A DNA stretch of 44,653 bases from a virus, in the IMG/VR virus record IMGVR_UViG_3300014720_000055, positions 1-44,653 of that record; one strand, 5' to 3'. Positions 8,814 through 36,400 of this stretch are shown in pieces (position 1 is the first letter of the stretch; every line of letters begins with the position of its first letter). The notes under the pieces are model-generated. The model was given only the letters and a program-made list of their open reading frames with translations, had not been told where the DNA came from and did not search any database. The translations under genes and the position numbers were made by a program.

Positions 8814-11800
8814 CTAGGTCCTCTCCCTGTACGCGCGCTGCTGCGCCTCGAGGGCGGCGACCACCTGCTTGGCGATCGCCGTCTCGGACTGACCCGGGGC
8901 GGGGTACACGTTGAGCGTCACCGTCTGGTTCATGGTGCCGGCGGCCCCGGGGAGTGTCGCCGAGCGCGGGGAGTACGTGTTGCCGATCGGGGGCACGACG
9001 TGCAGGTGCCGGCTCGAGCCCCACCCGTGGAACTCGGCGAAGCCCCCTGCGCCGGCGACTAGCTTCTGGTACTGGCCGAGGTTCTGGCCGACGAGGTCGT
9101 AGGCCCGCCCCGCCGCGTGGTCGGAGCTCGGCGAGCCGAGGTTGTCGAAGCGCAGCGAGCTGGTGACGCTCCGCTTTCCCGTGAGCAGCGAGTTGAAGCG
9201 CGCGTGCGCGGACATCGTCCCCCTCAGCGCCCTCGAGGTCGCGGTGTCCCCGATCTGCCCCCTCCTTGGGGTCCTCGTGTCACCACCTTGCACGAGCTTG
9301 AGGGTGTTGCCCGACACCTCCCATCTGGCGTTCAGCATGGAATTCCACCACTGAGGGGCGTTCTCGTATCCCTCGGGTTTGTTGTCCGACCCCGTCGATA
9401 TGGCGTTATAGATGTCTGTGAATTTATCCATCGCGGCTTTGTCAAGCGCGACGGTGCCCTCTACCTGAAAGGTCTTTGCCGTCTCGAGGGCGAAAACGCC
9501 TTCGCTTTGGCCCGGTCCTGCCTTCGTCTCGAGTGACTGGGCGAGAGCCTGGCCGGCCGCACCGAGGTTCCTCAGAGAATCCAATTGGAAGTTGCCATCC
9601 TTGTCGACGAGCTGCCCGGTTTCGAGGAAATTCAGCAATTTCGTCTTGTCTAGGCTGTCTATGTCCTGCCTGCCGAATATTGTCCTGAACGTCTCCTGGA
9701 GTTTGCCGGCCCGACTCGGGTCTTTCAGAACGAAATTTCTATCAAGAAGACCCCCGAGGGCTTGCTGGGTGGCGATATCCGAGATGCCGGAAAGCTGGGT
9801 TCGGTAAGCCTCTCCCGCCTGGGCTCGTCCGTTCTTTGCGAAGGCCCCGAGGAGGGCCGGGTCCATCTTGCCCAACAAGCCGAAATTCCCCTCGGAGAAA
9901 TCCCTCATGGCGTCGAGCGCGGCGAACGGGTTGTTGGGGTTGTCGCGCTCGGTCGTGGAGACCAGCAGGCGGGCGTAGTCCCTGAAGTCCTCTATCGTGG
10001 CTGTGCCGCCGAGCCCCATGAGCCTGTTCTGGCTAGCCGTGAACGCCTGGGTCTCGGCCCGCTTCTTTATCTCCTCGTCGAAGACGTCCAGCGACGCCAC
10101 GTTCAGGTCCCTGATCGCCGCTTTGACCTCCTCCGCCGTCCTCCTCGTCGCCTTGCCGAGCAGGCCCATGGTCTCCGTGAGCGACTTTGTCGGGTCGCCG
10201 AGGTCCACGTCCATCTTGTCCGCGAGCTGCTGGATCTGGTCCTCGGTCATGCCCGTGATCTTCGACAGATGCTTGACGACGAACAATCCCCGCTTCATCA
10301 CTATGTCCTGGACCTCCAGGGTGCCGAGGCCCGTCTTCGGCAGGAACAATTCGCCCCTCACCGCCTTGCCTGCCTGGTCTCGGCCGAAGAAGTCCTCGGC
10401 AGTCCTGGCCGCCATGTTCGTCACCCCATTCACGGTGCCGAAGGCGTCCCCCCGGATCTTGTTTATGAACTCGGAGTGAGATTTCGCTGCATTTAAATCG
10501 CCTCCCTCTATCTGCTTGACGAAAGCCAGTTGGCTTTCGTACTCGACGTTGGTCATCAAGCCCATGTCTCGCAATCCCGCGAGCCGAGCGCGGTCGCCCC
10601 TCTTCATCACTTCTTGGAGTTTCTCGTTGACGCTCTTGACTCTGTTGGCTCCCCTGAGGTAGGAGACCCCCTGCGTCTTGACCAGCTGGCCACTCGTTGG
10701 ATCGACGGTCATCCCGACCGTCGACGCGGCGACGAGGCCGCTCAGTCTCCTCGCCACGTTCTCCCCGGTTTTTCTGGATTGCTTCTCGCGGTTGCCCTGC
10801 GCCTTGAAGTAACCCACGGCGCCGCCGATGAGGGCGCCGCCGCCGATGATCAACGCCTTGGCGAGCGGGCCCGCGGGACCGAGCATCGGTGACAGCATGT
10901 CGGAGACGGTCTTGCCCACCGCCGCGCCCGCGAGGGCGCCTCCCGCCATCGCCTTGCCGGTGCTGGTCGATTTCAAAAGGGTGAGCCCAGCGGCCACGGC
11001 CATGCCCCTGCCGCCGAACATGGCGCCCACGCCGAGGGCGTTGTTCGCGGCGGCCCGCGTTTCCTGGTCCCCGATCCTGTTGGTAACCCCCGTGGACAGG
11101 AGCATGCCGCCCATCATGCCCATCATCGGGTTGAAGGTCTTGCGCAAGCTGGCCTGCGCGGCCTCGCCCGTCCCCCTGAACATGACCCCGGTGCGGCCCT
11201 TGAATTCCTCCCTCGCGAACGCCCTGTACGCGGCTCGTTCGCGCTTCGCGTCGAGCCTGCCACTAGAGTCGACGAATTTCCTCCCGCCCGCGGTTTTGTC
11301 CCTCTCGAGGAATTCCTTGAACGCTTTCTGCCTCGCTATCGCTAGTTCGCTGGGGGGAATCGTACCGCCGAAAAGCCCCATGCCGGGCATCATGCTCCTT
11401 GCGTGTCTGTCGGCTGTTTCTATCTGTTCCTGCATTGCCTTCCCGCTGAGGGTTCGGAAAAGTCCCTCCCTCTTGGAGCTCAACGTAACTCCCCCCTCCG
11501 TGGCCGTCACGTTCGATCTCCTGAACTGGTTGAGAATGCCTCTGAATCCGACCCCGCCGGTGCCGAGCCTGAGGTCCCTGCCCGCGGTCGCCTCTTGCAT
11601 GGCCATTCGCCTCACCTCGTCTCGCCCCTGCTCAAGAAGCTTCAATTGTTTGTTTTGATTGAACCCGGCGAATCCGGGCATCGCCCTCACGCTCGCATCC
11701 GAGGCTTCCACCGCTTGACGTAATTTCTGACTTGCCACCGTTCCCGCCATGGGTCCGAACGGCGTTGGCGCAACGAGGCCAGATGGCGCCACCCCCATGA

Positions 11801-13868
11801 AGGTCGCGAATTCGGCCTGGTCTGCGAAACCTATCCGCTCGAAGCGGTTGCCCGCGAACAACTGGGCCTTTCGCCCGGTGCCCACCTTCTCGACGCCCCT
11901 CACGAGAGTTGGATCTCTGACCCCAAACGGGTCGTGGTATGACCTGCCCTGATCCATCAGCATCTGCTGTTGGGCGTAGTTGGCGGCGACCTCCCCGGGG
12001 GTCAGCCTCTGGTTGCCGCGCGCCGTGCTGTACCTCTTCCGACTCAGTATCGCGGGGATCCCGCCGAAAATCCCGCGCGGCGCCATGCTCGCCCCGTGGA
12101 CCGAGGCTTGGTTCATCGAGTCCCCGACGGTCCCGCGCCCGGCCCTCCTCATCCTGTAGGCCGTCCTGCTTCCCCTGAACCCGCCGAATAGCAGGCCGAG
12201 GGTCACCAGCGAACCGATTCCGGGTCCGATCCCGCCCCCGATGGTTCCGCTCGGGCCGCCGCCGGTTCCGCCCATCCCGAGGAACCCCTCCCCGCCTCCG
12301 AGCTTGAACGTCCCTATCCCCCTGACCACGCCGGACATCGTGTCGATGAGCTTGGTCAGGATGTTGACGATCCCGGTCAGCACGGGCAGGGCCTCGGTGA
12401 ACGCTACCTTGAGCGCGGCGAACCAGTCGCCGATTGCGAATATCAGGTTCTCCAGTGCGCTGCCCCAGGCGACGAACTGCTCCTCGTTGTCCTCGGCGAG
12501 GTAGCCGAGCTGCTCGGCGTTCCTGCCGAAGATCCTGAATATCGCGAGCAGCGGGCCCTTGAACGTCTCGTTGATTATCCGCGACCCCTCGCGGAACTTC
12601 TCGAGGGAGTTCTTGAACTGGTTGAACGACTTCATGAACGAGGCCGACGTCCTCTTGAACCACTGCGACGCCCCGAACAGCATCGGGAGGTACTTCCTCA
12701 CGAGGCTGACGGAGAACCTCTCGAGCGCGTTGCCTATCGTCGTGATCGCCGGGAAGAGCTTGTTCTTCCCGAAAAACGAGAACTCGGGCGCCAGTCTCGC
12801 GAACACGTTGCGCACGTTCTTGAACAGCCCGTCCAGGACCCTTCGCGTGTCGTTGAGGAACTGCTCTCCGAAGTCGGCCATGTCCTGCGCGAGGGCGACG
12901 GTTATCTGCTTGAACTGCGCGACGAGGGTCCCCTTGATCGACCCGAACTCGCCGCTGACGCCCGCCTGCTGGGCGAGCTTGCCGCTCGCCATGGACGCCA
13001 TGATGCTCTGCGCGTCCTTGCCCTTCGACTTCTTTATCGCATCCGCGAACTCCTTGCTGACCCCCGACGCGGCCGTGCTCGCCTTGCCCGTGACCTTGCC
13101 CTCCTTCTGGAGCACCGCGACGAAGTTGGCCATCGCCTGGAACGACTTGCTCTGGTCCTGCGACCTCGCGGTGAAGTCCATCGCGCCGGACAGCGCCTTG
13201 GTCTGCGCGCCCGTCACCCTGCCCTGCTGCGACATCGCCTTGTAGGCCTGCGTCAGGTTCACGACGCCCATGGTGGCGAGGTTCGTGTCCGAGTAGAGGC
13301 CCCTCATGGCCGCCGCCGCCGCGCCCGTGGCGGAGCCGTAGACGTTCGCCCCCTTGTACTGCCAGGCCGCCGCCGCGGCGTTGAACTCCCTGAAGGCGGC
13401 CACGGCGGTGGTCGCGGCCACGGCGACGGTCGCGAGGGCGGCTCCGACGGCGCCGAGGGTGAGGTTGTAGCCCTTGGCCACCACCTGCCCCGTCTTGAAG
13501 AGCAGGTTCACCGACGCCAGGGTCGCCGCCGTGATCACGAACTCGGCGGCCAGGGCGATCAGCTGGAAGAAGAGGAGGCGCGCGATTTTCCTGAACATCG
13601 TCATCAACTTGTTGTTCGAGACCATGCGTCTTCCGAGTTGCTTGCCGGATTTTTCGAGGGCGTCCGTCCTCCTTCTCATCGCGGCGAGCGGCTCGTCCAC
13701 GTTCCTGACGGTGCGGTTCATTCTGTTCGTCGATTGCGAGAACCTGTTGGTGGAGTCGTTGGCGGCGTCGACGGCCTCGGTGAATCCCTGGATCTCGGCG
13801 AGCACCTGCGCCATGTCGCGGCGGTTGGCCTCGAAATCAATGCGTATAGTGACTATCTCGTCGGGCAA
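8814..13868 (-). CDS. Tape measure protein with C-terminal M15-like peptidase motif (1684 aa)
   Basis: This sets tail length and occupies the tube lumen before injection. The evidence is its length, its place directly after the frameshifting tail chaperones, long helical regions, and hydrophobic segments (about residues 95-170 and again around 960-1020, rich in A, G and L). Near the C-terminus the segment 1581-1629 reads SSDHAAGRAYD...HGWGSSRHLHVVPP, the zinc-peptidase pattern HxxGxAxD...HxH of M15/VanY-type D,D-carboxypeptidases (H1584, D1591, H1623 as expected ligands). This suggests peptidoglycan cleavage during DNA entry. The start codon is TTG (13866-13868) with GGGAG 7 nt upstream; a TTG start for so large a gene is unusual but the frame is clear. 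Confidence 0.88.
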   Translation of the reverse strand: MPDEIVTIRIDFEANRRDMAQVLAEIQGFTEAVDAANDSTNRFSQSTNRMNRTVRNVDEPLAAMRRRTDALEKSGKQLGRRMVSNNKLMTMFRKIARLLFFQLIALAAEFVITAATLASVNLLFKTGQVVAKGYNLTLGAVGAALATVAVAATTAVAAFREFNAAAAAWQYKGANVYGSATGAAAAAMRGLYSDTNLATMGVVNLTQAYKAMSQQGRVTGAQTKALSGAMDFTARSQDQSKSFQAMANFVAVLQKEGKVTGKASTAASGVSKEFADAIKKSKGKDAQSIMASMASGKLAQQAGVSGEFGSIKGTLVAQFKQITVALAQDMADFGEQFLNDTRRVLDGLFKNVRNVFARLAPEFSFFGKNKLFPAITTIGNALERFSVSLVRKYLPMLFGASQWFKRTSASFMKSFNQFKNSLEKFREGSRIINETFKGPLLAIFRIFGRNAEQLGYLAEDNEEQFVAWGSALENLIFAIGDWFAALKVAFTEALPVLTGIVNILTKLIDTMSGVVRGIGTFKLGGGEGFLGMGGTGGGPSGTIGGGIGPGIGSLVTLGLLFGGFRGSRTAYRMRRAGRGTVGDSMNQASVHGASMAPRGIFGGIPAILSRKRYSTARGNQRLTPGEVAANYAQQQMLMDQGRSYHDPFGVRDPTLVRGVEKVGTGRKAQLFAGNRFERIGFADQAEFATFMGVAPSGLVAPTPFGPMAGTVASQKLRQAVEASDASVRAMPGFAGFNQNKQLKLLEQGRDEVRRMAMQEATAGRDLRLGTGGVGFRGILNQFRRSNVTATEGGVTLSSKREGLFRTLSGKAMQEQIETADRHARSMMPGMGLFGGTIPPSELAIARQKAFKEFLERDKTAGGRKFVDSSGRLDAKRERAAYRAFAREEFKGRTGVMFRGTGEAAQASLRKTFNPMMGMMGGMLLSTGVTNRIGDQETRAAANNALGVGAMFGGRGMAVAAGLTLLKSTSTGKAMAGGALAGAAVGKTVSDMLSPMLGPAGPLAKALIIGGGALIGGAVGYFKAQGNREKQSRKTGENVARRLSGLVAASTVGMTVDPTSGQLVKTQGVSYLRGANRVKSVNEKLQEVMKRGDRARLAGLRDMGLMTNVEYESQLAFVKQIEGGDLNAAKSHSEFINKIRGDAFGTVNGVTNMAARTAEDFFGRDQAGKAVRGELFLPKTGLGTLEVQDIVMKRGLFVVKHLSKITGMTEDQIQQLADKMDVDLGDPTKSLTETMGLLGKATRRTAEEVKAAIRDLNVASLDVFDEEIKKRAETQAFTASQNRLMGLGGTATIEDFRDYARLLVSTTERDNPNNPFAALDAMRDFSEGNFGLLGKMDPALLGAFAKNGRAQAGEAYRTQLSGISDIATQQALGGLLDRNFVLKDPSRAGKLQETFRTIFGRQDIDSLDKTKLLNFLETGQLVDKDGNFQLDSLRNLGAAGQALAQSLETKAGPGQSEGVFALETAKTFQVEGTVALDKAAMDKFTDIYNAISTGSDNKPEGYENAPQWWNSMLNARWEVSGNTLKLVQGGDTRTPRRGQIGDTATSRALRGTMSAHARFNSLLTGKRSVTSSLRFDNLGSPSSDHAAGRAYDLVGQNLGQYQKLVAGAGGFAEFHGWGSSRHLHVVPPIGNTYSPRSATLPGAAGTMNQTVTLNVYPAPGQSETAIAKQVVAALEAQQRAYRERT
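8924..9128 (-). other. M15 (D-Ala-D-Ala carboxypeptidase-like) motif in the tape measure
   Basis: Codons for residues 1581-1648 of the tape measure include SxxHxxGxAxD (H1584, D1591) and W1616....H1621-L-H1623. In M15 peptidases the first His, the Asp and the last His bind zinc, and the HxH neighbourhood supplies the general base. All expected positions are filled, so the domain is probably active rather than a relic. Tail-borne muralytic domains are known in other phages; here it lies about 60 residues from the C-terminus. Confidence 0.7.
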
Positions 13869-19705: not shown

Positions 19706-20266
19706 TCACCTGTCGGGGTTTGGGGGTCTCTCGAATTGCGGCCTTTCTTCCTGGTTGGCCTCTATCGGCACCCAGGCCTTGGAGTACACGTGCTCCGAAA
19801 TCTTTCTCATCTTGAGAAGAGATCCGTCAAGGAGCACCTGGAGCTCATCTGCGGTCATGTTGAAGGCGCGCATCAGCGAATCCGAGTCGTGGGTGCCCGA
19901 GTTGATTAGCGTTCTGACTATTTTCGAGAGCTTCTTGTTTATGACCTGGCCCCTGCCCCTGTTGAGGGTCACGTGCATGATCATGGCCTCCGTCTCGGAA
20001 ATGTCCGGGAGCACGACCGCTGGGATGAATCGTCGGTCGACGAGCACTCGCGGCATGGCCTTGGCCAAGGCCAACCTTTCGTGGCCGTCTACGACGGTGA
20101 GCCCGTCGCCGTCCCGTCTGCCGTAGACGACGATCGGGGACAGCCAGCCGTACGCGGCCAGCGACGCTGCGATGAGTCCGAGGTCGGGTTTCACGATGTA
20201 GGTGGCCCGCCAGGGCGCGGGCCTGAGGGCGTCGGCCTCGACCATTTCCTGCCTGTTGTCATTCAT
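19706..20266 (-). CDS. ParB-like (IbrB-type) protein A (186 aa)
   Basis: The domain is ParB/Srx-like: 'LIAASLAAYGWLSPIVVYGRRDGDGLTVVDGHERLALAK' (about residues 31-69) has the DGHeRl.Aa signature, and 'MIMHVTLNRGRGQ' (about 97-107) matches the second conserved strand-helix pair. The protein lacks a clear C-terminal HTH of chromosomal ParB. It overlaps the PAPS-reductase-like gene by 8 nt, so the two are coupled, as in IbrA/IbrB pairs. Family knowledge: such phage ParB-like proteins may be nucleotide-binding nucleases or regulators; the exact role here is unknown. Confidence 0.82.
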   Translation of the reverse strand: MNDNRQEMVEADALRPAPWRATYIVKPDLGLIAASLAAYGWLSPIVVYGRRDGDGLTVVDGHERLALAKAMPRVLVDRRFIPAVVLPDISETEAMIMHVTLNRGRGQVINKKLSKIVRTLINSGTHDSDSLMRAFNMTADELQVLLDGSLLKMRKISEHVYSKAWVPIEANQEERPQFERPPNPDR

Positions 20267-21389
20267 CGCTTGCCTCCGCGTTCTCCCTCTTCGCGATCCC
20301 GTACGCCTTCGTCCCCGGTCCCATCGGGGTCGGCGACGCCGCGGTGAACTCGTTGAGCAACAGCGTGCGTATCAACCAATGTATCGGGTAGCTCTTCGGG
20401 TCGTTGCGCATCTTCATCCTGAACTTCGCGCAAAAAGCCTTCGCGTAGTGGAGGTCGGAGTCGCTCATCATGTGGTCCTCTATGCACGCCTTGACCCCGT
20501 CCCACTCATACCGCGCGTACCCCATGATCAGCTTCTCGACGTCGTAGTCGGCCCACAACCTGCGCTGCGCGTCGATCATCGGCCAGACCCTCTGGAGCTG
20601 GTCGAAAAAGGCTGGCTCGGTCGCCATGAGGTCACCCATCCTCCTGGCGGCGACACAATATAGAGGTATGCCGACCCTCGTGTTGGACCCCGTCATCGCC
20701 GCGACGTCGTAGTACTCGCAGTACTCCGCGCCGTGCTCTTCGGCCACGAACTTGAGGACGTCGTCGCTCGTCCAGTCGTAGATCACCTTCGCGAACCTGA
20801 GCGGGAGGTTCCTCGGTGCCTTGTAGGGGGCGACGATGTAGTTCTCGTGAAGCTTCTGGACGAGCGACCTGTACCTCACCATGGACTCGTTCGCCCTCAC
20901 GCCGGTCAAGAAGGCCGTCCTGCCTTTCTTGCCCTGCATCGTCCAGTAATCGGTGTCGCCCATGTCGTTCTCCCTGCTCAGTCCGAACGATTCCGCGTTT
21001 ATGGCGAACTTCGGCATCGGCCTGACGAGGCGACCCTCTCTCTCCCTCTGCTTGGACCAAGTCATCTCGGTGGTCCTCTTGCCCATGGACCAGACCTCCG
21101 CCCCGACCGACAGGCAGTACCACTCCATGTCCACCCAGTCGTAGTTCCGCACTTTTTCCACGAAATCTATGACCATCGGGCTGACCATCTCTTCGTCCCT
21201 GAATATGGCCCTCACGGGGCCAAGACCGCGCTCCTCGTGTAGCTCCTTTGCCAGATACAGCACCGCCGTCGAGTCCTTGCCCCCGGAGAACTGGACGCAC
21301 ACGGTGTCGAAGGTGTCGTAGACGTGCCTGATCCTTTTCCTCGCGGCGTCGACGCAAGTGGTGTCAAGGTAGAGCCGCTTCCTCGGCAT
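20259..21389 (-). CDS. PAPS-reductase / IbrA-like PP-loop protein (376 aa)
   Basis: The PP-loop is at residues 35-40 (SGGKDS) in 'VCVQFSGGKDSTAVLYLAKELHEERG', followed by 'VRAIFRDEEMVSPMVIDFVEKV', the usual PAPS reductase / ATP-pyrophosphatase core. Later come 'KKGRTAFLTGVRANESMVRYRSLVQ' and 'VIYDWTSDDVLKFVAEEHGAEYCEYYDVA', typical of IbrA and DndC relatives. I choose the ATG at 21387-21389, which overlaps the stop of ParB-like protein B (ATGA); the frame is open further up but only as a shadow. It most likely activates a substrate by adenylation, with sulfur transfer unproven. Flanking ParB-like genes on both sides suggest a three-gene IbrAB-like unit. Confidence 0.85.
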   Translation of the reverse strand: MPRKRLYLDTTCVDAARKRIRHVYDTFDTVCVQFSGGKDSTAVLYLAKELHEERGLGPVRAIFRDEEMVSPMVIDFVEKVRNYDWVDMEWYCLSVGAEVWSMGKRTTEMTWSKQREREGRLVRPMPKFAINAESFGLSRENDMGDTDYWTMQGKKGRTAFLTGVRANESMVRYRSLVQKLHENYIVAPYKAPRNLPLRFAKVIYDWTSDDVLKFVAEEHGAEYCEYYDVAAMTGSNTRVGIPLYCVAARRMGDLMATEPAFFDQLQRVWPMIDAQRRLWADYDVEKLIMGYARYEWDGVKACIEDHMMSDSDLHYAKAFCAKFRMKMRNDPKSYPIHWLIRTLLLNEFTAASPTPMGPGTKAYGIAKRENAEASDE

Positions 21390-22174
21390 CAGAAGTCGGC
21401 GTTCGTGTTTATGAAGTCGATCAGTTTCGACGCCGTCGTTTCGCCCACGTACGCCGGGTCGTTCCGGACGTACCTGATGAAGTCGTACCATCGTTTCTGC
21501 TGGCCCGCGTCGTCGAACACGAGGGTGTACTGAACTATCGCCCTCTCGCCACCCTTCACGCCAACCGCCACGCTCCCCCTCGTGATCGCCTCCTCCTTGT
21601 CGATCTCGTCCGTGGCCACGTAGTCGATCTCGTCGTTCTCGTTTTTGCTCTCCAGTATCTGGTCGGTTCCGCTCGGCTCGAACGGGTTGACGATGACTGC
21701 GGGCGTGTAGCCGCCCCTGTTGTCGTTCCTCTCGTTGACGAGTATGTCGGTGGTCAGGGACGCGATCTCAAACTCGTCCCAGCCGAGTCCAAGCAGCAGG
21801 TCCTGGTATTCGGACGAGATTTCGGACATCAGCTCGAGCACGACCACCTGATCGGTGTTCCCCAGCTCGGTGGTCCTGTTGTCGGCCAGCGCGAAGGCGT
21901 GCCCGCGACTCTCGTCAACCTCGTAGACGATCGCCGCGATTTTTTGCCAACCGAGTTTCCTCGCGGCGAGCAACTGGTGGTTGCCTGCTATGACCGAGAA
22001 CTTTCCGTCGTCGGACGGCATCACCACGATGGGTTTTATCTGGCCGAACTCGCTGTACGAGGCGACTATCGAATCAACGTTGCCTATTCGTGGGTTCCTC
22101 TCCATCGGCTGGAGTAGGTCTATGTCGATCGCCAGACCGAGGATGGACGGATGGATGTTGGCGGCGTCGCTCAC
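21389..22174 (-). CDS. ParB-like (IbrB-type) protein B (261 aa)
   Basis: This is a second ParB-like protein with clearer motifs: 'LLQPMERNPRIGNVDSIVASYSEFGQIKPIVVMPSDDGKFSVIAGNHQLLAARKLGW' (about residues 20-76) and 'HAFALADNRTTELGN' (about 92-106), matching the NPR, aGnhr..Aa..LG and DNr..el strands of the fold. After residue 150 it has a unique acidic C-terminal extension that ends in 'YDFIRYVRNDP'. It overlaps the small helical gene by 4 nt and the PAPS-reductase-like gene by 1 nt. It is longer than protein A and not closely similar to it, so the two are probably not recent duplicates. Confidence 0.85.
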   Translation of the reverse strand: MSDAANIHPSILGLAIDIDLLQPMERNPRIGNVDSIVASYSEFGQIKPIVVMPSDDGKFSVIAGNHQLLAARKLGWQKIAAIVYEVDESRGHAFALADNRTTELGNTDQVVVLELMSEISSEYQDLLLGLGWDEFEIASLTTDILVNERNDNRGGYTPAVIVNPFEPSGTDQILESKNENDEIDYVATDEIDKEEAITRGSVAVGVKGGERAIVQYTLVFDDAGQQKRWYDFIRYVRNDPAYVGETTASKLIDFINTNADF

Positions 22175-22509
22175 ACCTGGGCCCTGACGTTTGCGTTGAG
22201 CGTCCTCAGGGCGTCAATCGACGTCCTGAGGAGGCTGAGCTTCTCCCTCTTTGCCTTGACAAGGGCCTCGGAGATTTTGTAGTCGTAGTTCTCGTCGTTC
22301 ATCTGGTAGTCGGCCCACGCTTCGCGTTCCTTTATGGATCCCTTGGCGGCCAAGTATGACTTGGCCCAGTTGGCCTTGTACTTAGCCTCTTTCTTGGCGG
22401 CGTCGGTGGAGAGGGTTTCGAAGGCCTCGGTCTCGTTCTCGAGCAAGTCCATGAGGCGCAACAACTCCTCCTCGATTTCAACTTGACTTATCGGCGTACT
22501 GCGGGTCAC
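22171..22509 (-). CDS. Small helical protein of unknown function (112 aa)
   Basis: The protein is nearly all helical and charged: 'EIEEELLRLMDLLENETEAFETLSTDAAKKEAKYKANWAKSYLAAKG' then 'KISEALVKAKREKLSLLRTSIDALRTLNANVRAQ'. Similar small proteins are frequent beside recombination genes in phages, but I cannot assign a function. The start is GTG at 22507-22509, preceded by AAAGGAAA; the nearby ATG is followed immediately by a stop. It begins 1 nt after the RuvC-like stop and overlaps ParB-like protein B by 4 nt. Confidence 0.7.
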   Translation of the reverse strand: MTRSTPISQVEIEEELLRLMDLLENETEAFETLSTDAAKKEAKYKANWAKSYLAAKGSIKEREAWADYQMNDENYDYKISEALVKAKREKLSLLRTSIDALRTLNANVRAQV

Positions 22510-26032: not shown

Positions 26033-27343
26033 TCAGACGAGGATAGTGGACGGCCTCCTGAAAGGCAACCCCAAACCGGCGAGAAACATGTAGGCGCCGA
26101 CGGCGGAGTCAACCTGGTCGTCGTGGACCTTGGCCTCGGGGAACGACGAGAGCTCGTCCAGCCAGTCCGACATCCAGGGGGCCCTGATGATCTTCACGTT
26201 GCCGTTGGCCGCCGCCGCGGAGAACGGCCGGGCTCTTGTCACCTTGTCGCCGGTGGACCTTATTCCCATGAAGTCGTAGCCTGGCACCACGTACCGCGAG
26301 TACTGGTCGACGAGGGCCTTGCCCGACGAGCCGGGCTCCTGCTCCATCCTGACCGCCACGGCGGTTCCGTCTTCCGTCGCCGTCTGTGCGACGAGTTGCT
26401 CGACCTTGTCGCCCTTGACCCTCGCCCTCTTGACGTCGAGCACGTAGGCGACGCCGTTCTCGAACAGCATCAGGGTTCCCACGGTCCAGTCGGGGTCGGG
26501 GTTCGAGCCGCTCGGTTCGGTGGCGGCGAGGTCCCAGAACCGCACGGCGCGGGCGGTCGGACCCATTACTGGCACCTCGCTCGAGTCGATGACGACGAAC
26601 GAAGTGCGGTCGAACATGGTACCGAGCGTCGTTGCCCACCAATCTCCCTCCTCGAGCCTCCTCCGCTCGAGCGGATCCAGCGAAGCGAGCGCTATGCGGT
26701 AGGACTCGGCGTCGATGCCCGGGTTGTCGGTCAGTTTGGACGGCACGAAGACCCTCCCCGTGCTCATTCCCTCCACGATGAACCTCTGTCTCACCCAGTT
26801 CGGGGCGGGGTTGGACGCGGCCCTCATCCTGAGGGGGACCTGGGACAGGGGACCCGTCGCCGGACGCCTGAGTCGGGAGAACAGGTAGCGGTAGTCGTTC
26901 TCCCTGATCTCCGTGACCTCGTCCATGCCTACGAACTGGAATTCCGAGCCCTTGTAGCGGAGGTAGTCGTTCTGGTTGTTCAGGTACCCGAAGGAGATTC
27001 TTGCCCCAGAGGGGAATGTGGCGACGTAGGTGTTGTTGTTCCAGTGGACCTCGTCGTAATTTGCTATCCAGGTTCGGAACCTGTCCATGAGTGCCCCGGG
27101 CAAGGAGAGGTCGGCGAACGTTCGCCTGAACAGAATCGCCGAGTAGCCGGGGACATCGAGGTACTGCATGGCGGACATGAGGAGGGCGGACGATTTGCCT
27201 CCGCCGGCGGCGCCCCCGAAGAGACCCTCGAGGCAGTGCGTCCTGAGAAAAACCTTCTGGGTCAAAGAGGGAGACTCGGGGCAGAACATGGGGTCCTTGG
27301 GCTGGAGCCACTCCAGCACCTTTTCCCAGTTTGTCTCTTCCAT
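26033..27343 (-). CDS. terL: Terminase large subunit (436 aa)
   Basis: The packaging motor. Walker A is residues 43-52 (GGAAGGGKSS), Walker B ends at D141-E142 in 'FQFVGMDEVTE', and a coupling-type motif follows. The C-terminal RNase-H-like nuclease has D271 in 'RFWDLAATE', a glutamate around 334-336 in 'RMEQEPGSSG', and D408/D409/D412 in 'HDDQVDSAVGAY'. All main catalytic residues appear present. The start ATG (27341-27343) has GGAG 5 nt upstream. It is divergent from the portal gene, which is unusual, and no small terminase was recognised beside it. Confidence 0.93.
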   Translation of the reverse strand: MEETNWEKVLEWLQPKDPMFCPESPSLTQKVFLRTHCLEGLFGGAAGGGKSSALLMSAMQYLDVPGYSAILFRRTFADLSLPGALMDRFRTWIANYDEVHWNNNTYVATFPSGARISFGYLNNQNDYLRYKGSEFQFVGMDEVTEIRENDYRYLFSRLRRPATGPLSQVPLRMRAASNPAPNWVRQRFIVEGMSTGRVFVPSKLTDNPGIDAESYRIALASLDPLERRRLEEGDWWATTLGTMFDRTSFVVIDSSEVPVMGPTARAVRFWDLAATEPSGSNPDPDWTVGTLMLFENGVAYVLDVKRARVKGDKVEQLVAQTATEDGTAVAVRMEQEPGSSGKALVDQYSRYVVPGYDFMGIRSTGDKVTRARPFSAAAANGNVKIIRAPWMSDWLDELSSFPEAKVHDDQVDSAVGAYMFLAGLGLPFRRPSTILV

Positions 27344-27599: not shown

Positions 27600-29819
27600 A
27601 TGGCCTGGAATTCCAGATCCAACAAGGGTTCTAACGCCGACAGGTTTAAGGCGCTGAACCCGGGCGCCCCGGTCGCCTACAACCCGTCCCAGGTCGGGAA
27701 ACCGTACCGTGACTCGTGGGACATAGAGCGCGCCTACCGTGAGGGATTTCAGAAGGTCACCTGGGTGAACCGCTGCATTGACGCCATCGCGGGCAACCAG
27801 TCTCGTCTGCCGGTGATCCTCAGGGAGGGCAACAGCCCGGCGGGCAGGGTGGTCAACAAGACCGACAGGAAAATTCTCGATTTGTTCAACACGAAGGCGA
27901 ACATGGGCGAGAATTCCTTCGTGTTCAGGTACAGGCTCTCGTCGCAGCTCCTCATGTCTTCCCGCGGCGCGTTCATAGAGAAGATCAGGGGACGAGACGG
28001 AGAGCTGATCGCCCTCCAGCTGCTCCCACCGCAGCACACGGCGCCGATCCCCGACCCCAAGAAGTTCGTCTCGGGTTTCGAGGTGGACATGCGCAACGGA
28101 ACGAAGGTGACCCTCAAGCCCGAGGACGTCGTGTGGATCAGGAAACCCCACCCGTTGGATCCCTACCTCTCGCTCACCCCGATGGAGTCGGCGGGCATCG
28201 CCATCGAGATAGAGAATCTCTCCAAGCTCTACAACCGAAACTTTCTTCTGAACGACGGCAGGCCGGGCGGCCTATTGGTGGTCAGGGGGGAGATTGATGA
28301 CGACGACAAGGACGAGCTCAAGAGCCGCTTCAGGGGGAACGTGAACAGGGCCGGGGCCGTGACCGTCCTGTCCTCGGATGAGGGAGTCGATTTCGTCGAC
28401 ACCGGCCAGAGCCCGAGGGACGCGAACTACGTCCAGATGCGCCAGATACAGAAGGAGGAAATACTCGCCGCCTTCGGTGTCCCCGAGTCCGTGATCGGCA
28501 ACGCGGCGGGCAGGACTTTTGCCAACGCCGCCGAGGAGCACAAGGTGTTCTGGAACGAGACGATGCTCCCCCACCTCGAGACGATCGCAAGGGCCTTGGA
28601 CGAACTGGACGACCAGTACTACATCGACTTCGACGTGACCGACGTGCCGGTCCTCGTTCTCTACAAGCAGGAGAGGGACAGGTACCTGATGACCGAGTAC
28701 CAGACGGGTCTCATCAGCGGCAACGAGTACAGGGAGGGCGCAGGGCGCAAAGTGGTCGACTCCGAGCTGATGAACGCCATGCTCGCCAACCCGAACCTAA
28801 CCCCGATCGGATACACGAACAAGAAGTTCGTGCAGCAGCAGATGGGCGCCCCCGGCATGGGCGGGGCGGTCCCGCCGGCCGGAACGCCGGGCGGACCGAT
28901 GATGCCCGGGATGGGCGCCGTACCGCCGATCCCCGGGATGCCGGCGATCGAGGGGGTGGCTCCCGCCCCGCAGGATGGCATGACCGCGGCGCTCGCCGCC
29001 GAGGACGTGGCCGCGGCCCAGGCCGGCCAGATGGCCCAGGCGTCGGCCTTCGGCAACCAGGTGAGCACGAAATCCCTATGGGACGAGTGGGACGAAAAAG
29101 CCGAGAACTCCCTGGGCAGGTGGACCGAGATACTGGACACGGCGCTCGAGCGTTTCGTGGAGCGCCAGCAGCGGGTGATCATGGAGAAGGCGGCGGGTTC
29201 CAAGTCGCGGAGGGCCCTGGATTCCGGGAGCCTCGACTACGAGAACATATTCGACCAGCGAATCTGGGACAAGCAGCTCGCCGAGGACATGCGTCCGATA
29301 CTGAGCGGAATCATGAACGACGCCGCCACGATCGTCTCGCAGGAGATCGGGATGCAGGCCGAGATCGACGAGAAGGAGGCCTCGGAGCACCTCAAGGAGC
29401 AAGTCGAGAGGTTCCAGCAGGTCAATGCGACGACCGCCAAGGAGATCGAGGGGGCCGTCCTAATATCCCTGTCGCTGGGCGACGAAGAGGACAAAATGGG
29501 AATGCTCAAGGCGGCGCTGCTCGCCATATTCGTCAACCTGCTGTCCAAGCGCAAGAGGACGATCGCCGAGCACGAATCCCACGCAGCGTTCAACGCGGGC
29601 TCCTTCTACGCAGGCCGCTCAATCGGCGCGGCGACCAAAACGTGGGTCTCCGAGAAGGACGCAAAGGTCAGGCCCGAGCACTCGTCCCTGCACGGCAACA
29701 CCGTGAGCATGCACGAACCTTTCGTGGTTAGCGGGCAGGCCATCATGTACCCCGGCGATCCGACGGCTCCGATAAACCTTACGATGAACTGCCGATGCAA
29801 GGTGAGATTCGGGTTCTGA
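27600..29819 (+). CDS. Portal protein fused to a MuF-type head morphogenesis domain (739 aa)
   Basis: The N-terminal about 400 residues are a portal: 'YREGFQKVTWVNRCIDAIAGNQSRLP' and 'PTPMESAGIAIEIENLSKLYNRNFLLNDGRPGGLLVVRG' region plus 'EEILAAFGVPESVIGN', a typical HK97-type portal signature, followed by 'RTFANAAEEHKVFWNETMLPHLETI'. Residues about 417-457 are a G/P/M-rich linker. The C-terminal about 250 residues are helical and end with the MuF fold: 'ESHAAFNAGSFYAG', 'KTWVSEKDAKVRPEHSSLHGN' and 'NCRCKVRFGF'. Portal-MuF fusions are known and usually place MuF inside the capsid. The ribosome-binding site is AAGGAG 12 nt upstream. Confidence 0.9.
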   Translation: MAWNSRSNKGSNADRFKALNPGAPVAYNPSQVGKPYRDSWDIERAYREGFQKVTWVNRCIDAIAGNQSRLPVILREGNSPAGRVVNKTDRKILDLFNTKANMGENSFVFRYRLSSQLLMSSRGAFIEKIRGRDGELIALQLLPPQHTAPIPDPKKFVSGFEVDMRNGTKVTLKPEDVVWIRKPHPLDPYLSLTPMESAGIAIEIENLSKLYNRNFLLNDGRPGGLLVVRGEIDDDDKDELKSRFRGNVNRAGAVTVLSSDEGVDFVDTGQSPRDANYVQMRQIQKEEILAAFGVPESVIGNAAGRTFANAAEEHKVFWNETMLPHLETIARALDELDDQYYIDFDVTDVPVLVLYKQERDRYLMTEYQTGLISGNEYREGAGRKVVDSELMNAMLANPNLTPIGYTNKKFVQQQMGAPGMGGAVPPAGTPGGPMMPGMGAVPPIPGMPAIEGVAPAPQDGMTAALAAEDVAAAQAGQMAQASAFGNQVSTKSLWDEWDEKAENSLGRWTEILDTALERFVERQQRVIMEKAAGSKSRRALDSGSLDYENIFDQRIWDKQLAEDMRPILSGIMNDAATIVSQEIGMQAEIDEKEASEHLKEQVERFQQVNATTAKEIEGAVLISLSLGDEEDKMGMLKAALLAIFVNLLSKRKRTIAEHESHAAFNAGSFYAGRSIGAATKTWVSEKDAKVRPEHSSLHGNTVSMHEPFVVSGQAIMYPGDPTAPINLTMNCRCKVRFGF

Positions 29820-29933: not shown

Positions 29934-30480
29934 ATGGCGAACGAAACTATTTCCTCAGAGGTTGACTACCTCTACAAATCGCTCAACGGCCAGATAAACG
30001 TCGACGAGGCGCAGGGCATAGTCGAGGCATTCGTCGCCGGAGTGGGCAACAAGGACTCCGTGGGCGACATCTGCCTGCCGGGGTGCTTCACCTCGTCGCT
30101 CAAGCGCAGGAAGCCCCGGGTGGTCTGGGGCCACGACTGGAATTCCCCGATCGGCAAGGTGCTCGAGATATACGAAGTCGGACCCAACGATCCCCGTCTC
30201 CCGTCCAAGATGCGCAAGGCCGGCATAGGCGGCCTCTACGCGAGAGTCCAGTTCAACCTTAAGGCCGAGAAGGGGCGCGAGGCCTTCGCCAACGTGTCTT
30301 TCTTCGGCATGGAACAGGAATGGTCCATCGGCTACAAGACGCTGGACGCCGTGTTCGACCCCGTGCAGACTGCGAACCTTCTCAAGGAAGTCGAGCTGTA
30401 CGAGGTGTCGCCGGTGCTGCACGGAGCGAACCAGCTGACGGGAACGATATCCATCAAGGCCGACGAGGCGGAGACCGAGG
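29934..30480 (+). other. HK97-type prohead protease domain of the polyprotein
   Basis: Residues about 1-170 show the S78/U35 pattern: 'GIVEAFVAGVGNKDSVGDICLPGCF', then H67 in 'RVVWGHDWNSPIGKVLEIYE', then S131 in 'QEWSIGYKTLDA', and 'EVELYEVSPVLHGANQLT' at the end. H67 and S131 are the expected catalytic His and Ser. In related phages this enzyme cuts scaffold and capsid proteins inside the prohead. Its fusion to about 4300 further residues is not usual. Confidence 0.85.
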
Positions 30481-33400
30481 TCAAAGACGAGCAGGGTCCG
30501 TGCTGGCCGGGGTACAAGCAGGTGGGCATGAAAAAGGGCAAGGGTGGCAGGATGGTCCCCGACTGCGTGCCCGTCGGCGGCAAGTCTCTAGACGACGAGT
30601 GCTGCCCCGACGAGAAGGCGGCCGACAAGCCCGTGCTGCGAGACCCCAAGGGGGGGTTGACTGCGGCCGGGAGGGCGCACTTCAAGCGGACCGAGGGCGC
30701 GAATCTGAAGCCCGGGGTCAGGGGTGCCGCCGACACGCCGCAGAAGATGCGCAGGAAGGGGTCCTTCCTCACGCGCTTCTTCACCAACCCGAGCGGTCCG
30801 ATGAAGAAACCGAACGGCAAGCCGACGAGACTCGCCCTGTCGGCCGCTGCCTGGGGGGAACCGGTGCCGCAGAACGCGTCCGACGCCGCGGCGCTCGCGG
30901 CGAAGGGTCGCAGGCTGCTAGAGAGATACGAGAATTCGAAGAAGAAGGACGACTCCGAATCGTTGGAGAGCAAGAATCACGTGGACGCCATCTACGCGGC
31001 GGCCCTGACCCCGCAGAACGAAACCTTCGGCAGGGCGTCGCAGCTCACGAGGGCCCTCGCCGCGCGCTTCGGCGGACCCGTCAGGCTGGTAACCGCCGAC
31101 AACGACATAGCGGTGTTCGAGATGGGCGCCGGCCAGTCCACGGAGATGCTGCGGGTCGCCTACCACTTCGACGGCGACGAGTTCATGATCGGAACGGCGC
31201 AGAGGGTGAAACCGGAGACCGTGTACATCCCCGTAAACGAGACCAACTCGGGGCAGACTTCGGGCGGGGTGGCGACCGGCATCGCCCCGGTCCGCCAGCA
31301 CCATGAGGGACATTGTTGTCCTGGGTGCGGCGGGGGAGGGAGCTGTGACGCATCGGTCGCGCTCTCCGACGGGGAGAACCCGAGAATCGCGTTCCTGAAA
31401 CTCAAATCGCTCGGCGACCAACTCGACTTCAGGGTCCGGCCGGTGTCCGGGGGATTCGTGCTGGAGGGCTTCGGTCTGCTGACCGAGCAGGCGCAGCAAT
31501 ACGTCGTGGACAAGATAGACGACGGAATGAGCGAGAAACTCCTCAATCCGGTCGGCAGACTCGCGAGGAGGACGATCGGGTTCCCGAACCCGCGGGCGAC
31601 CCTGAACGTGAACATGAACCCGTTCACCGCGAGGGACGCCGACCTTGACAAGCTCGTGCTCGAGGGGATTCCGATGATAAACATGGGGAGGGGCATCCCC
31701 GACCCGACTCCGTTCGGGGTGCCGGAAGCCCCGGGCTTCGCAAGTCCGAACATCCCGAGCGCATCCGACAGGGTGGTTCCCGGTCGCCGCAGAACGGACA
31801 TGCCGCCCATGATGCCAGCGATCCCCGAGGAGCCGGAGATCCCCGAACCCGTGAAGGAACCCAAGCCCGAGACCGTCCCCCAGGAGCCGCGAGTTCCGAC
31901 AAGACCCAAAACCCCGATACCGGAGAGGGAGCCCTCGCCCTCGCCCTCGCCCTCGCCCGCACCAGCGCCGGCTCGCCCGGTCCCGGAGAGACCGCGCGTG
32001 CCAGTCCCTGTCGGGATGGACGGTAACGATGATTTCGCCATCGCCGCCATGGGGGGCAAGAGGAGAACGCCCAAGGATCTCGCCGACGAGCTGGCCCAGA
32101 TGGACTCGTTCGACCGCCCGAGCAGGCAGACGAGGCAGCGCCGCCTGAGGGACGAGGGCATGGACCAAATGCGCAGGCTGATGCTCCTCGACGGACCGGA
32201 AGCCGGAATGAGCGATTCCAGGGGATCGCGCAAAAATAGGGGTTTGGAATTTATGTTGCGCCCGGATGAGGGGAGGGTCTACTACAGATTCGCGGACGGA
32301 GATTTCAAGGACATAATGGAGCCCGACGAAAACGGGTTCACGCTCATTGACGAAATGAACGAGCTCGGTTACAACGACAGGGGCGATCTCGTAATACGAG
32401 TTGCAGGCCGAGACAGCGTCCTGTTCAGCAAGGAACAGTTTGACTCCAGGGACGGGAATCCGATTTTCACTTTCGAAAACCCCGACAGGGACGAAGTCGT
32501 ATTCGACCGCGAGTTCACGTTTCCCCCTGGTTTCGACGACATCGACGAAATCGACTACGTCGGCTACGACAACATGGGCAATCTCGTCAATCGCGGACCA
32601 GACGGGGACCAAATAATCTTCACGGCGGAGCAACTCGGTTCAACCGGGATGACCGATGACGACATCGTCGACGGCGAAATCGTAGACGACGGTCAGGCGG
32701 GCATGGCCGGCGCTCGCAGGACGAGAGAAGAATCCGCCGAACTCGGAAGAAAGATATGGCTGGCGAGAACGCACGACAAGATTTCGCTGGAGGATGCGGG
32801 CAGTCGTTTCGGCATGTCGCGACAGGACGCGCGCCAGCTCGAGCTGCTCCACCAGAAGTACCTGAGAGGCCTCGGCGCCGAGCATCCGAACCGTGTGGGA
32901 CGAAGCATGCTCGACGATCCGATGACAGGCCTCACCGACGCCGAGATGGATCTCCTCAGGAGGAGATTCGACGGCGAAAAGATCGAGGAGGCTGCGGAGC
33001 GTCTCAGGACTGACAAGTTCGCCGTGAGGCGCATGGAGCAGCTGGCTCTGGCCAAGTTGAGGAACAGGATGCTGGATGACGGCCAGGGAGTCTCTGCCGG
33101 CATGGGCAAGCGCAATGGAGGCAGGGCGGTAGAAGCCGACCCCCCAAAAGCACGACGGGTCGAAAGGCCCGGAAGCCAAAGAAAAAAAAATAGACTCAAC
33201 CCCAGTTTCATACAGATCCTAGATTCCCTGCGGGAATCTGGTCCCGGCGGATTGAGCTCAGGCGAGCAGGTTCGCCTGGCAGCCCTGATGCGACTCCGCG
33301 GCGTCGTCGGCAAGAAGATCGACGACATGATGGCGAGAGGTTCGGGTAGCCGGCGCATGTCGAATCTCGGGCCGGAAATCAATGAGCTCAACGCGTCCAT

Positions 33401-36400
33401 TCGCGGGCCGTTCTCGTCCCTCGCCGAGGCGACGAGACTCTCGGTGGGCACCCCTCGGGATCTGGTTTCTACAGCAATAAAGATGGTCAACGGCGATCAC
33501 GATCCCCGGGACCTAGACAGTTCCATAAACGTTCAGGTGTTCGAGGCCCTGCACCTCTCGGGGGGCGACGTGGCTTCGGTCGCCCGAAGCCTGGGGATGG
33601 ACGAGCAGGTGGTTCGCATCAGGGCCAACGCCCACTCAATGAGGCTCCTCGCGGCTTCCCTCCCGTCAAGGTTGAAGCTGAGCAGACGCATAGAGGAGAA
33701 CGGCGACAAGCTGACGTCGGCCGAGCAAGCGATGCTCAGGATGTGGGTCGACGGCGCATCAAACCTCGACATCGCCGACAAGATGGGGTCGGGCCTAGAC
33801 GAGAAGGGCGTAATTGCCGAGAGGGCTGAGGCCCTGCGAAAGATAGGCGTGGACCTGAACTCCGCCGAGCTGCGCAACAAGATCGTCGACGGAAGGATTT
33901 TCTACGACGAGCACGGTCTCTTCAGCGAAGTGAGAGACGAACTCGGGAACACGACCTACAACAGGATCGGGGACGGCCCCTCGGCGGGGATGGGCGCGGG
34001 CAGGAAGACCGTCGTGAGCGCCGATTTCGGCGACGGAAGGCGGGATTACGCAATCTCCAGGACCGTGGCGAGGGACAGGGCCCGCGGCGAAGAGTCGGTC
34101 CTGCTGGTGCCGATCAGGGGCGACGACGAGCCCACCATCAGCACCCTGATCGGCAGGCAATTGCTGTTCGACGAGAGAGGCGCTGGTCTCGAGTTGCCCG
34201 CAGTCATCAGTCGCTCGGGCGGACGAGTGGCAAGGGTTTCGGACGCCTACGGGCAGGACGTCCCGTTCTTCGGGGAGACGACCATCGACGACAGCATGAA
34301 ACCGTCGGATGGCGCGCTCAGCATCGCCGAGAGGATCGCCGCCGTTAGGAGCAACGACTCCGCGGCCCGAATGAAGATGGACCAGGACGTCGACGGGGCG
34401 CAGACGAGGTACGCGAACCTCGTCACGGCGCTCGATCACCTGATCACCACGGGGGACTGGATCGGCGGCGATCTCGGAGTGACGGGGCGAGTGCCCGAGT
34501 ACGCAACGATGATGACTTACGGCCTCGATGCGGACGAGGACGGACGGCCGATCATCCCCGCCAACGCGACGAGGGAGCAGTTTGAACTCCGGGAGGCGGA
34601 GTGGTTCCTCTCGCGCAACCCCGGCGCAACGAACGAGCAGGTTGAGTCGCACGTGTCCTCGGCGTCAAGGGACAGGATTGCGCAGGTCAACAGGAAGTTG
34701 GACCTCGCCGGCAAGGAGCTGGCGAGGCTCCGCCACATGAGGGACTCCAGGGAGGTCAGAAGGGCGCAGAACGTCGTCGATCTCGAGACGCTCGACGACG
34801 ACGCGGCTCAGATGCTCAGCGACGAGACCGTCTTCCTCTCGTCAATGTCGGGCGTTGAGTTCGATGCGTCGGCGGTGGCGAAGGGCGCCGACGGGTTCGT
34901 TTACGTCGTGCACAAGGGACCGGACAGGCTCGCGGGCGGGGTGCTTGATCCCCGCAGATCCGCCGGCGCCCCTGGCGGCGCCGGCGATGTCGCCGGGCAG
35001 GGCGACACGCGGGGGCTGAACAGGATATATCTGGACAGATTCCTGCAGGTCGCCGAGAGCAATAGGGAGATGGTGGGGCACGCGGAGGGTCTCGCAGCGA
35101 GAATCGCTAGGGGCGACATGGTCGTGACCGCGCACCCGTTGATACTGAGTGCGCTGAGGGGGCGATCGTCTGTGCTCGCCTCGGCGTTCAACGAGTCGGG
35201 GGGGCTGAACCTCGCGAACTACGACAAGGCGCGGGTGGACGCGATCGTGAGGGAAATCGTTGGCTTCGTCGACGACCTCAAAAGAGACATGCAACGCTAC
35301 GGCAAGATAAGAGATTCCCTCGTCAGATTTGGCGGCCCGAACATGGACCAGATGCTGTCGGTCGAGGCGGACGCGATCAGGGCCACCTCGTCCCTCAATT
35401 TCTACGGGAGGTACGCCGAGGCGGATCTCCCCGACGACGTCGTGGAATTTGCCACGGGGTTCACGGACGGATTGACCAGGGGATGGGATCCGATTGACCC
35501 CGAGATGTTCGACAGGTGGAACCTCGGCGGGTCCCTCCGCGGCGGGGCGTTCCTGGCCGTGGGCAGGGAGGACTCCGAAATCGTGAGGGGCGGGTTGCTG
35601 GGACCGACATCCGAGTCGCAGATCATTTCCCCGCTGAAGCCGCTGATCGGAGTATCCACCCCCGTCAGGGTCGACTACAAGACCTCTCCCAACGACCCGA
35701 AGTTCCTCGTGACCCAGATCGGACCGGCGATCATGGCGAGGGCCATAAAGATGCACAAGAGGGACGGCGAGGTGGACATCGAGACGGTGCTGACCGACCC
35801 CAGTCTCGCACCCGAAGGATTCGCCGCGCGGCGCGCGGGCTCGGCGGTCGACGATGCTTCCGCAGGGATGGCCTCCGCTGACCGGATGGTGCGCGAAATC
35901 GTCAACGCAATGGATGAGTACGAGAGGATCGCTTTCAGCGATTACGAAAGGGACGACCAATATCCCAGCCCGCCGACGAACGGGGAGTTCGTCCGTTTCG
36001 CTCGATACTTCGAGGGAGTCGTGGCGACCGAACTCGGTCTGCCCGAAACGAACCCAACCCTTCTCTCTTTCCGTTCCGAATTCCGCGACAGAGTCAAGTC
36101 AGTCGAGGCAAGAGTCGACAGAATCCTCGACAAGCAGGGAAAACGAGAAGTAATTAAGACGACCATCAAGATACTCGGACTGGCGTTGGACCTCAAGATC
36201 CGCGGGGTGGATGCCCTTGATATGGCGGGTGGCAAGGGAGGCTCGAAAGGGACGCTCGAACTGCACTGGATGATTCTGGATGCCGGCGCCTACAAGATTT
36301 TCAATGCGTACGGGCAGAAGGCCCTCGTGGACTTCCTCAACGCAGCAGTGCGAGCGAAACTTCTGCCGCGAAAATCGGCGGACAGAATCATCAACAGGGT

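Follow-up and report, generated by a model that had tools for sequence, protein, structure and literature searches.

Among the systems described so far, the IbrA-IbrB pairs are among the closest to the locus considered here. In these pairs a PP-loop enzyme of the PHROG 424 type, which carries the domain DUF3440, is followed by a ParB-like protein encoded downstream; the E. coli proteins YbdN-YbdM are a chromosomal pair of the same kind. Further comparisons are offered by DndB-DndC, in which an enzyme of the PAPS_reduct superfamily adjoins a protein of the ParB/Srx superfamily, and by the CTP clamps KorB, Noc and ParB. We analysed the entire linear virus record IMGVR_UViG_3300014720_000055 (44,653 bases, probably a fragment; called the window in the following), in which the original prediction had recognized a PP-loop enzyme with the motif SGGKDS flanked on both sides by ParB-like proteins. 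The upstream protein is termed ParB1 and the downstream protein ParB2.

The three open reading frames are found where they had been proposed, all on the minus strand and with overlaps of 1 and 8 nucleotides (nt), and their matches to Pfam and PHROG families are far beyond chance. Co-occurrence in viral genomes supports the view that ParB1, the PP-loop enzyme and ParB2 constitute one functional unit, which we tentatively connect with the modification of phage DNA.

Distribution and joint retention of the three genes

The enzymes were sorted by profile score into a T-type, resembling the window enzyme, and an I-type, resembling IbrA. ParB genes within 1.5 kb were then counted, the survey being limited to loci with flanks of 1.5 kb or more in either direction. 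A ParB gene was present on both sides of the enzyme at 66 of the 110 T-type viral loci; 12 loci had one and 32 had none. The I-type bacterial loci, on the other hand, had a downstream ParB only (67/68). The original prediction had regarded two different ParB-like partners as less usual and had proposed a neighbourhood survey of IbrA homologues. For the PHROG 2302 enzyme this assumption is wrong, as seen from the counts above and from the annotated phages listed below: the double arrangement is usual for the subtype of the window enzyme, and the single downstream ParB is that of the bacterial IbrA loci. The double-ParB arrangement is no rarity; it is more aptly regarded as what typifies a large subtype of phage enzymes that differs from IbrAB.

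In a tree of 69 enzymes the window enzyme was placed in a clade separate from the IbrA group (support 88). One T group contained the window enzyme (support 99) and another the copies from actinophages, Bacillus and Rhizobium (support 95). The gene architecture required 8 changes on this tree compared with about 26 when shuffled.

The trio is annotated gene by gene and in the same order in Mycobacterium phage Phlyer (gp1, gp4 and gp5, the last with the note IBrB) and Arthrobacter phage Salgado (gp5 to gp7), where the three families, their order and their strand are as in the window. These two phages differ from the window in that the enzyme has about 34% identity, extra small genes and a methyltransferase or GNAT gene are located in or beside the cluster, and their ParB2 has the motif DGFHR and no ERPPNPDR tail. 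Further annotated trios were found in an M. abscessus prophage (gp92-97), Bacillus 031MP003 (81, 82, 86), Rhizobium L338C (gp88-90), an Amycolatopsis prophage on a plasmid, Kovu and Faecalibacterium phage Taranis. The very divergent Taranis enzyme lies on a long branch near IbrA despite the presence of the trio, and its tree position is unsure. Pairs of an IbrA-type enzyme and only a downstream ParB are present in Streptococcus PY7, E. coli PhiR5_2 and Mycobacterium Gaia. Small genes (Zn-ribbon/HNH-like, methyltransferase-like or GNAT-like) are often inserted beside the enzyme or past ParB2 in other phages and could possibly be extra components or mobile nucleases.

Since 28 of 58 close relatives had no ParB nearby, we considered whether the enzyme acts alone in these cases. 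Loci without a nearby ParB were traced through the whole records, and in the long records the ParBs were found elsewhere in the genome, so that this alternative was rejected for the long records, whereas it may still apply to short fragments. Every one of the 29 viral records that carry a T-type enzyme and measure at least 48 kb also contained ParB2, and 28 of them contained ParB1, although these records are fragments, partly of one lineage, and the counts are not independent trials; for the record G030, ParB1 was seen directly upstream in the local survey. In six records, most or all of them of one phage lineage, the genes lie apart and all three are nevertheless retained (Table 1). In two of these, G001 and G002, ParB2 occupies the same place as in the window, with the gene for a 112-amino-acid protein on one side and the neck gene on the other. 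Two records of the same terminase lineage that do not contain the enzyme (G038, 87 kb, and G040, 53 kb) are also missing both ParBs. The window ParB2 matches just 95 of 50,697 sequenced phage records, and the presence in 29 of 29 is thus not background, even with the more sensitive profile used for the records. The varied ways in which the genes are split argue against simple hitch-hiking as the cause of their joint retention, and the co-occurrence even without linkage makes it less likely that the three proteins do not interact. In-frame stops were indicated within the ParB2 matches of G019, G032 and G036; the stop in G019 lies one codon before the start codon and does not mean that the gene is broken.

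The literature searched, which did not include most subscription journals, contained no account of the three genes as one system. The gene families themselves are known; the novelty lies in their combination as a unit of three, in the retention of all its genes even without linkage, and in the mismatch with DndC, CysH and IbrA.

The enzyme and its two ParB-like partners

The enzyme matched the Pfam family PAPS_reduct (5.2e-09) and, over nearly its full length, PHROG 2302 (4e-71). Throughout 128 T-type sequences the motifs SGGKDS, DEE, GxRxxESxxR and DWxxxD were invariant or nearly so, and the invariant residues comprised R19, D28, SGGKDS (35-40), D65, E67, R115, G163, R165, E168, S169, R172, DW (205-206), D210, Y227 and R238. 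Because the active-site residues are so strongly constrained, the protein is probably a working PP-loop enzyme that uses ATP. With regard to cysteines, only C224, part of a YCxxYD motif shortly past the DW motif, was kept at 97% (124/128), all others being kept at less than 85%. This cysteine content argues against an iron-sulfur (Fe-S)-dependent sulfur insertion and against the reduction of phosphoadenosine phosphosulfate (PAPS).

The AlphaFold2 model of the enzyme (mean predicted local distance difference test, pLDDT, 82) matched FAD synthase with a Z of 15.0 and a root-mean-square deviation (rmsd) of 2.8 over 174 residues. It also matched adenosine phosphosulfate reductase (Z 13.4), FMN adenylyltransferase (Z 13.4) and CysD of ATP sulfurylase (Z 12.9). 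These proteins handle an adenylate moiety plus a phosphate or sulfate group. The matches span residues 7-271 and barely test the C-terminal helical part (about 280-345).

The locus had originally been called IbrAB-like. This holds insofar as the enzyme is homologous (E 3.4e-24, 283 residues), its profile matching E. coli phage IbrA and SGGKDS being common to both, and insofar as ParB2, encoded directly downstream and carrying DGxxR and NR motifs, is the counterpart of IbrB. It is not a strict IbrA, since the window enzyme did not match DUF3440 (PF11922) up to an E of 1, compared with 4.7e-33 for the IbrA of phage PhiR5_2 and 6e-55 for the Gaia protein. Moreover, a second, upstream ParB is present in the window, and the C-terminal cysteines of IbrA are lacking. 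In the I-type enzymes these cysteines are partly conserved (61 to 72 of 84 at the columns that correspond to residues 354, 356 and 364 in the protein of the E. coli phage), which suggests a metal site that the phage T-type lacks.

ParB2 was recognized by PHROG 2159 ('ParB-like partition protein', 1.1e-24) and by no Pfam family. The residues D60, G61, R64, N102 and R103, which form the DGxxR and NR motifs, were kept in at least 98 of 99 sequences; DGFHR is the commonest form (41 sequences), and the window has DGHER. A tail like ERPPNPDR terminates 49 of 98 viral ParB2 proteins and none of 82 bacterial IbrB proteins, and it looks like a docking peptide. The predicted model (pLDDT 83.6) shows a ParB domain followed by a helix-turn-helix (HTH). 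Its best structural match was KorB, over 145 residues that take in the DNA-binding domain (Z 14.3, rmsd 4.0); the operator-binding domain of KorB alone matched residues 94-151 with a Z of 5.6, and Foldseek found ParB with an E of 2.8e-07. ParB2 is hence predicted to consist of a ParB nucleotide-binding domain and an HTH, as is expected of a CTP clamp of the ParB type. SspE (Z 3.5) and DndI (Z 2.7) also appeared in the fold search, with Z values too low to be evidence of kinship.

ParB1 matched ParB_N of Pfam (1.7e-10) and PHROG 723 (2.4e-36), and its profile matched Noc/ParB structures with an E of 1.4e-16. In place of the GERR of ParB, a GxxR-type motif, it has AGNHQ (AGNHQ or AGNHT in near relatives), so that the arginine is lost. 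Only N27, G64 and N99 are near-invariant, and a conserved region, QYTLVFDDxxQQxxWYDFIRxLR, is found at its C-terminal end. ParB1 and ParB2 are related to each other (E 6.1e-13), and both resemble the ParB domain of phage ParB-DNA-methyltransferases (PHROG 498, 1.2e-19 and 1e-09; PADLOC MTase_II, 5.6e-12 and 5.5e-06). They differ from the KorB, Noc and ParB clamps in that they accompany an enzyme and in that ParB1 has lost the arginine and has a C-terminal region of its own. The annotation of the window shows no ParA, a search aimed at ParA or parS not being part of the analysis.

Setting of the locus in the window

The coordinates are compiled in Table 1. ParB1 and the enzyme overlap at TGATG, and the enzyme and ParB2 at ATGAATGA. 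A further ATG of the enzyme frame is located upstream at 21491; the start at 21389 agrees with the relatives.

Table 1. Features of the three-gene locus in the window, and locations in other records referred to in the text (aa, amino acids)
Feature	Position	Strand	Remarks
ParB1, ParB-N domain protein, 261 aa	21389..22174	-	GTG start; ParB_N and PHROG 723
PP-loop ATP-pyrophosphatase-type enzyme, PAPS_reduct superfamily, 376 aa	20259..21389	-	ATG start; PHROG 2302
PP-loop motif SGGKDS, enzyme residues 35-40	21270..21287	-	invariant in 128/128 relatives
Codon of enzyme C224 (motif YCxxYD)	20718..20720	-	sole near-universal Cys, 124/128 relatives
ParB2, IbrB-like, ParB nucleotide-binding domain and predicted HTH, 186 aa	19706..20266	-	ATG start; PHROG 2159
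ParB2 motif DGHER, residues 60-64	20075..20089	-	variant of DGFHR; DGxxR residues kept in at least 98/99
ParB2 C-terminal tail ERPPNPDR	19709..19732	-	similar tail ends 49/98 viral ParB2
112-aa gene, PHROG 1389	22171..22509	-	4-nt overlap with ParB1; same operon
Record G001 (locus L043)	ParB2 22 kb, ParB1 73 kb, enzyme 92 kb		genes apart
Record G002 (locus L050)	ParB2 18 kb, ParB1 66 kb, enzyme 86 kb		genes apart
Record G025 (locus L170)			ParB1 apart
Record G033 (locus L284)	ParB2 55 kb, ParB1 108 kb, enzyme 117 kb		genes apart
Record G034 (locus L330)			ParB1 apart
Record G039 (locus L302)			ParB2 apart
Small-gene insertions	enzyme-ParB2 gap		L093, L095, L096, L097, L101, L115, L118, L085
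Small-gene insertions	just after ParB2		L003, L091

The trio had been assigned to a structural gene cluster. On the downstream side this agrees with the block of neck, sheath, tube and tail genes. The upstream block, however, consists of the 112-aa gene and the genes for RuvC, HNH, a PD-(D/E)XK exonuclease, an Erf-like annealing protein and the terminase, so that the trio is situated at a junction. As the 112-aa gene overlaps ParB1, the operon extends beyond the trio, which is thus not located purely within structural genes. Pattern scans for promoters and terminators between 18500 and 24500 gave nothing clearly over the shuffled background, and Rfam and tRNA searches gave no match. The terminase is closest to those of Gordonia phages (43% identity), which suggests an actinobacterial host.

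Some features outside the locus were also observed. The large terminase subunit (26033-27343, minus strand) and the portal (27600-29819, plus strand) are divergent, so that the head genes are split across the strands, and the portal is fused to a Mu F-like head morphogenesis domain. Positions 29934-43436 (plus strand) are occupied by a single open reading frame of 4,500 aa, an unusually large fusion or polyprotein. It starts with a prohead protease domain (PHROG 80, 2.3e-26) and DUF6321, and weak matches to a sigma-70 region 4/LuxR-type HTH and to exonuclease and DNA-polymerase-subunit sequences were found around residues 1000, 1260 and 2950-3100. A reading frame of 1,684 aa (8814-13868, minus strand) without a PHROG or Pfam match is by its position a probable tape measure gene.

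Possible functions of the three-gene unit

The original prediction had named DNA or RNA modification and anti-defence as possible roles, and each of these may still apply. We favour, with somewhat less than even confidence, a three-component phage module for the ParB-guided, ATP-dependent modification of phage DNA. DNA modification is proposed because the partners of the enzyme are of the DNA-binding type, because ParB domains are fused to phage DNA methyltransferases, and because there are parallels to DndB-DndC, encoded by adjacent genes at locus L337 with a DGQHR motif in DndB, and to DpdA, which is paired with the ParB-like ATPase DpdB in a DNA-modification system (PMC12839542). The three proteins would form a complex acting on the DNA. 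ParB2 would bind a nucleotide via its ParB domain and DNA via its HTH and thereby bring the enzyme to the DNA. The enzyme would use ATP by AMP transfer or adenylation with release of pyrophosphate, activating a phosphate or a base of the DNA, and the activated group would be substituted next. ParB1, with no recognised HTH and its GxxR arginine lost, may serve as a scaffold, as a clamp or in regulation. The outcome would be modified phage DNA, either shielded from host nucleases or marked for late steps. A more specific version is more doubtful: the trio may represent an undescribed and widespread viral three-subunit DNA-modification system in which an active, HTH-bearing clamp ParB and a degenerate ParB load an Fe-S-free PP-loop enzyme with adenylation chemistry.

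Several points weigh against DNA modification. Modified nucleosides are reported for no carrier phage in the literature searched, and no other DNA-modification gene is seen in the window. The 29 records with joint retention are, as stated above, not independent. The PP-loop fold is common to small-molecule and tRNA enzymes, DNA being suggested as the substrate by the ParB partners. Finally, IbrA and IbrB have been named as co-activators of prophage gene expression and not as DNA modifiers (PMC4490671, PMC5874904).

This description of IbrA and IbrB is also the starting point of the main rival, transcriptional co-activation, which we consider rather unlikely. Here the enzyme and the HTH-bearing ParB2 would co-activate phage genes, with the ParBs spreading on the DNA like KorB or Noc, and the enzyme would make or sense a nucleotide signal. 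It is in keeping with this that KorB, the best structural match of ParB2, is a transcriptional repressor and that the chromosomal pair ybdN/ybdM of E. coli is under the regulator CitR (PMC9068703). By itself, though, transcription control leaves the near-invariant catalytic site in 128 sequences unexplained, as well as the position beside terminase genes in several phages, and the window enzyme is outside the DUF3440 subtype that owns the name IbrA.

Modification of tRNA or another RNA, or a small-molecule adenylyltransferase rewiring host metabolism during infection, appears improbable. The fold would allow it, being common to TilS, TtuA, NcsA, LarE, FAD synthase and NAD synthetase, and a Mycobacterium prophage copy is annotated as 'nucleotidyltransferase'. 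For such an enzyme two partners of the DNA-binding type would be odd, yet ParB1 and ParB2 are retained in nearly all and all of the long records, respectively.

Phosphorothioation of the Dnd kind, in which the enzyme would add sulfur to the backbone of the DNA while both ParBs would stand in for DndB, DndD and DndE as nickase and NTPase, is in our view quite improbable. The enzyme profile matched a genuine DndC (locus L337, 702 bits to TIGR03183) over about 205 residues (E 2.4e-12), SGGKDS, G[IV]RxxESxxR and DWxxDxV are common to both, and the best PADLOC matches of the enzyme were DndC and BrxP. A DndC link has also been suggested for PAPS-like proteins of an M. abscessus prophage (PMC8092301). 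In contrast, the FRWC and C...C...CWTC cysteines of the L337 DndC have no counterpart in the window family, which has one near-invariant cysteine only, and the TIGR03183 score of the window enzyme is 24.1 bits compared with a cut-off of 290.4. Membership in DndC was ruled out on the 4Fe-4S cysteines and this score, and the conserved cysteines point to a chemistry that differs from that of DndC. Neither DndD nor DndE was seen in the window. Kinship of DndB with ParB1 and ParB2 was rejected (hhalign probabilities of 0.2 and 1.4, respectively), as the profiles showed no significant similarity beyond the DGxxR motif.

More improbable still is a role in packaging or late DNA handling, in which the ParBs would clamp newly replicated phage DNA and the enzyme would modify or charge a protein of the terminase complex. 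Terminase genes adjoin the trio or are close to it in Phlyer, Salgado, Kovu, the Amycolatopsis prophage and Taranis, and in the window lineage the distance is about 4-6 kb. No terminase is annotated near the trio, however, in Bacillus 031MP003 and Rhizobium L338C, and in the six records with separated genes some of the trio are elsewhere in the genome. That the enzyme is an assimilatory PAPS reductase, a sulfur auxiliary metabolic gene, is very improbable: it is suggested only by the domain name PAPS_reduct, but a counterpart of the C-terminal cysteine that is catalytic in the active site of CysH is not conserved, no CysH model is among the NCBIfam matches, and CysH-like sulfur reduction was ruled out by the cysteine census of the 128 sequences.

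Phage 'PAPS reductases' have often been filed as auxiliary genes of sulfur or host metabolism (PMC10434257, PMC11318856) or as IbrA co-activators. We argue that for one large phage subtype neither label is correct, PAPS reductase or IbrA in the strict sense: its members are PP-loop enzymes that lack Fe-S cysteines, are accompanied by two ParBs and are kept together with them even when unlinked. As several carriers grow on the common laboratory hosts M. smegmatis, Arthrobacter and B. subtilis, the role of IbrA-like enzymes is directly testable there. If the trio indeed modifies DNA, phage counter-defence would gain a new chemistry.

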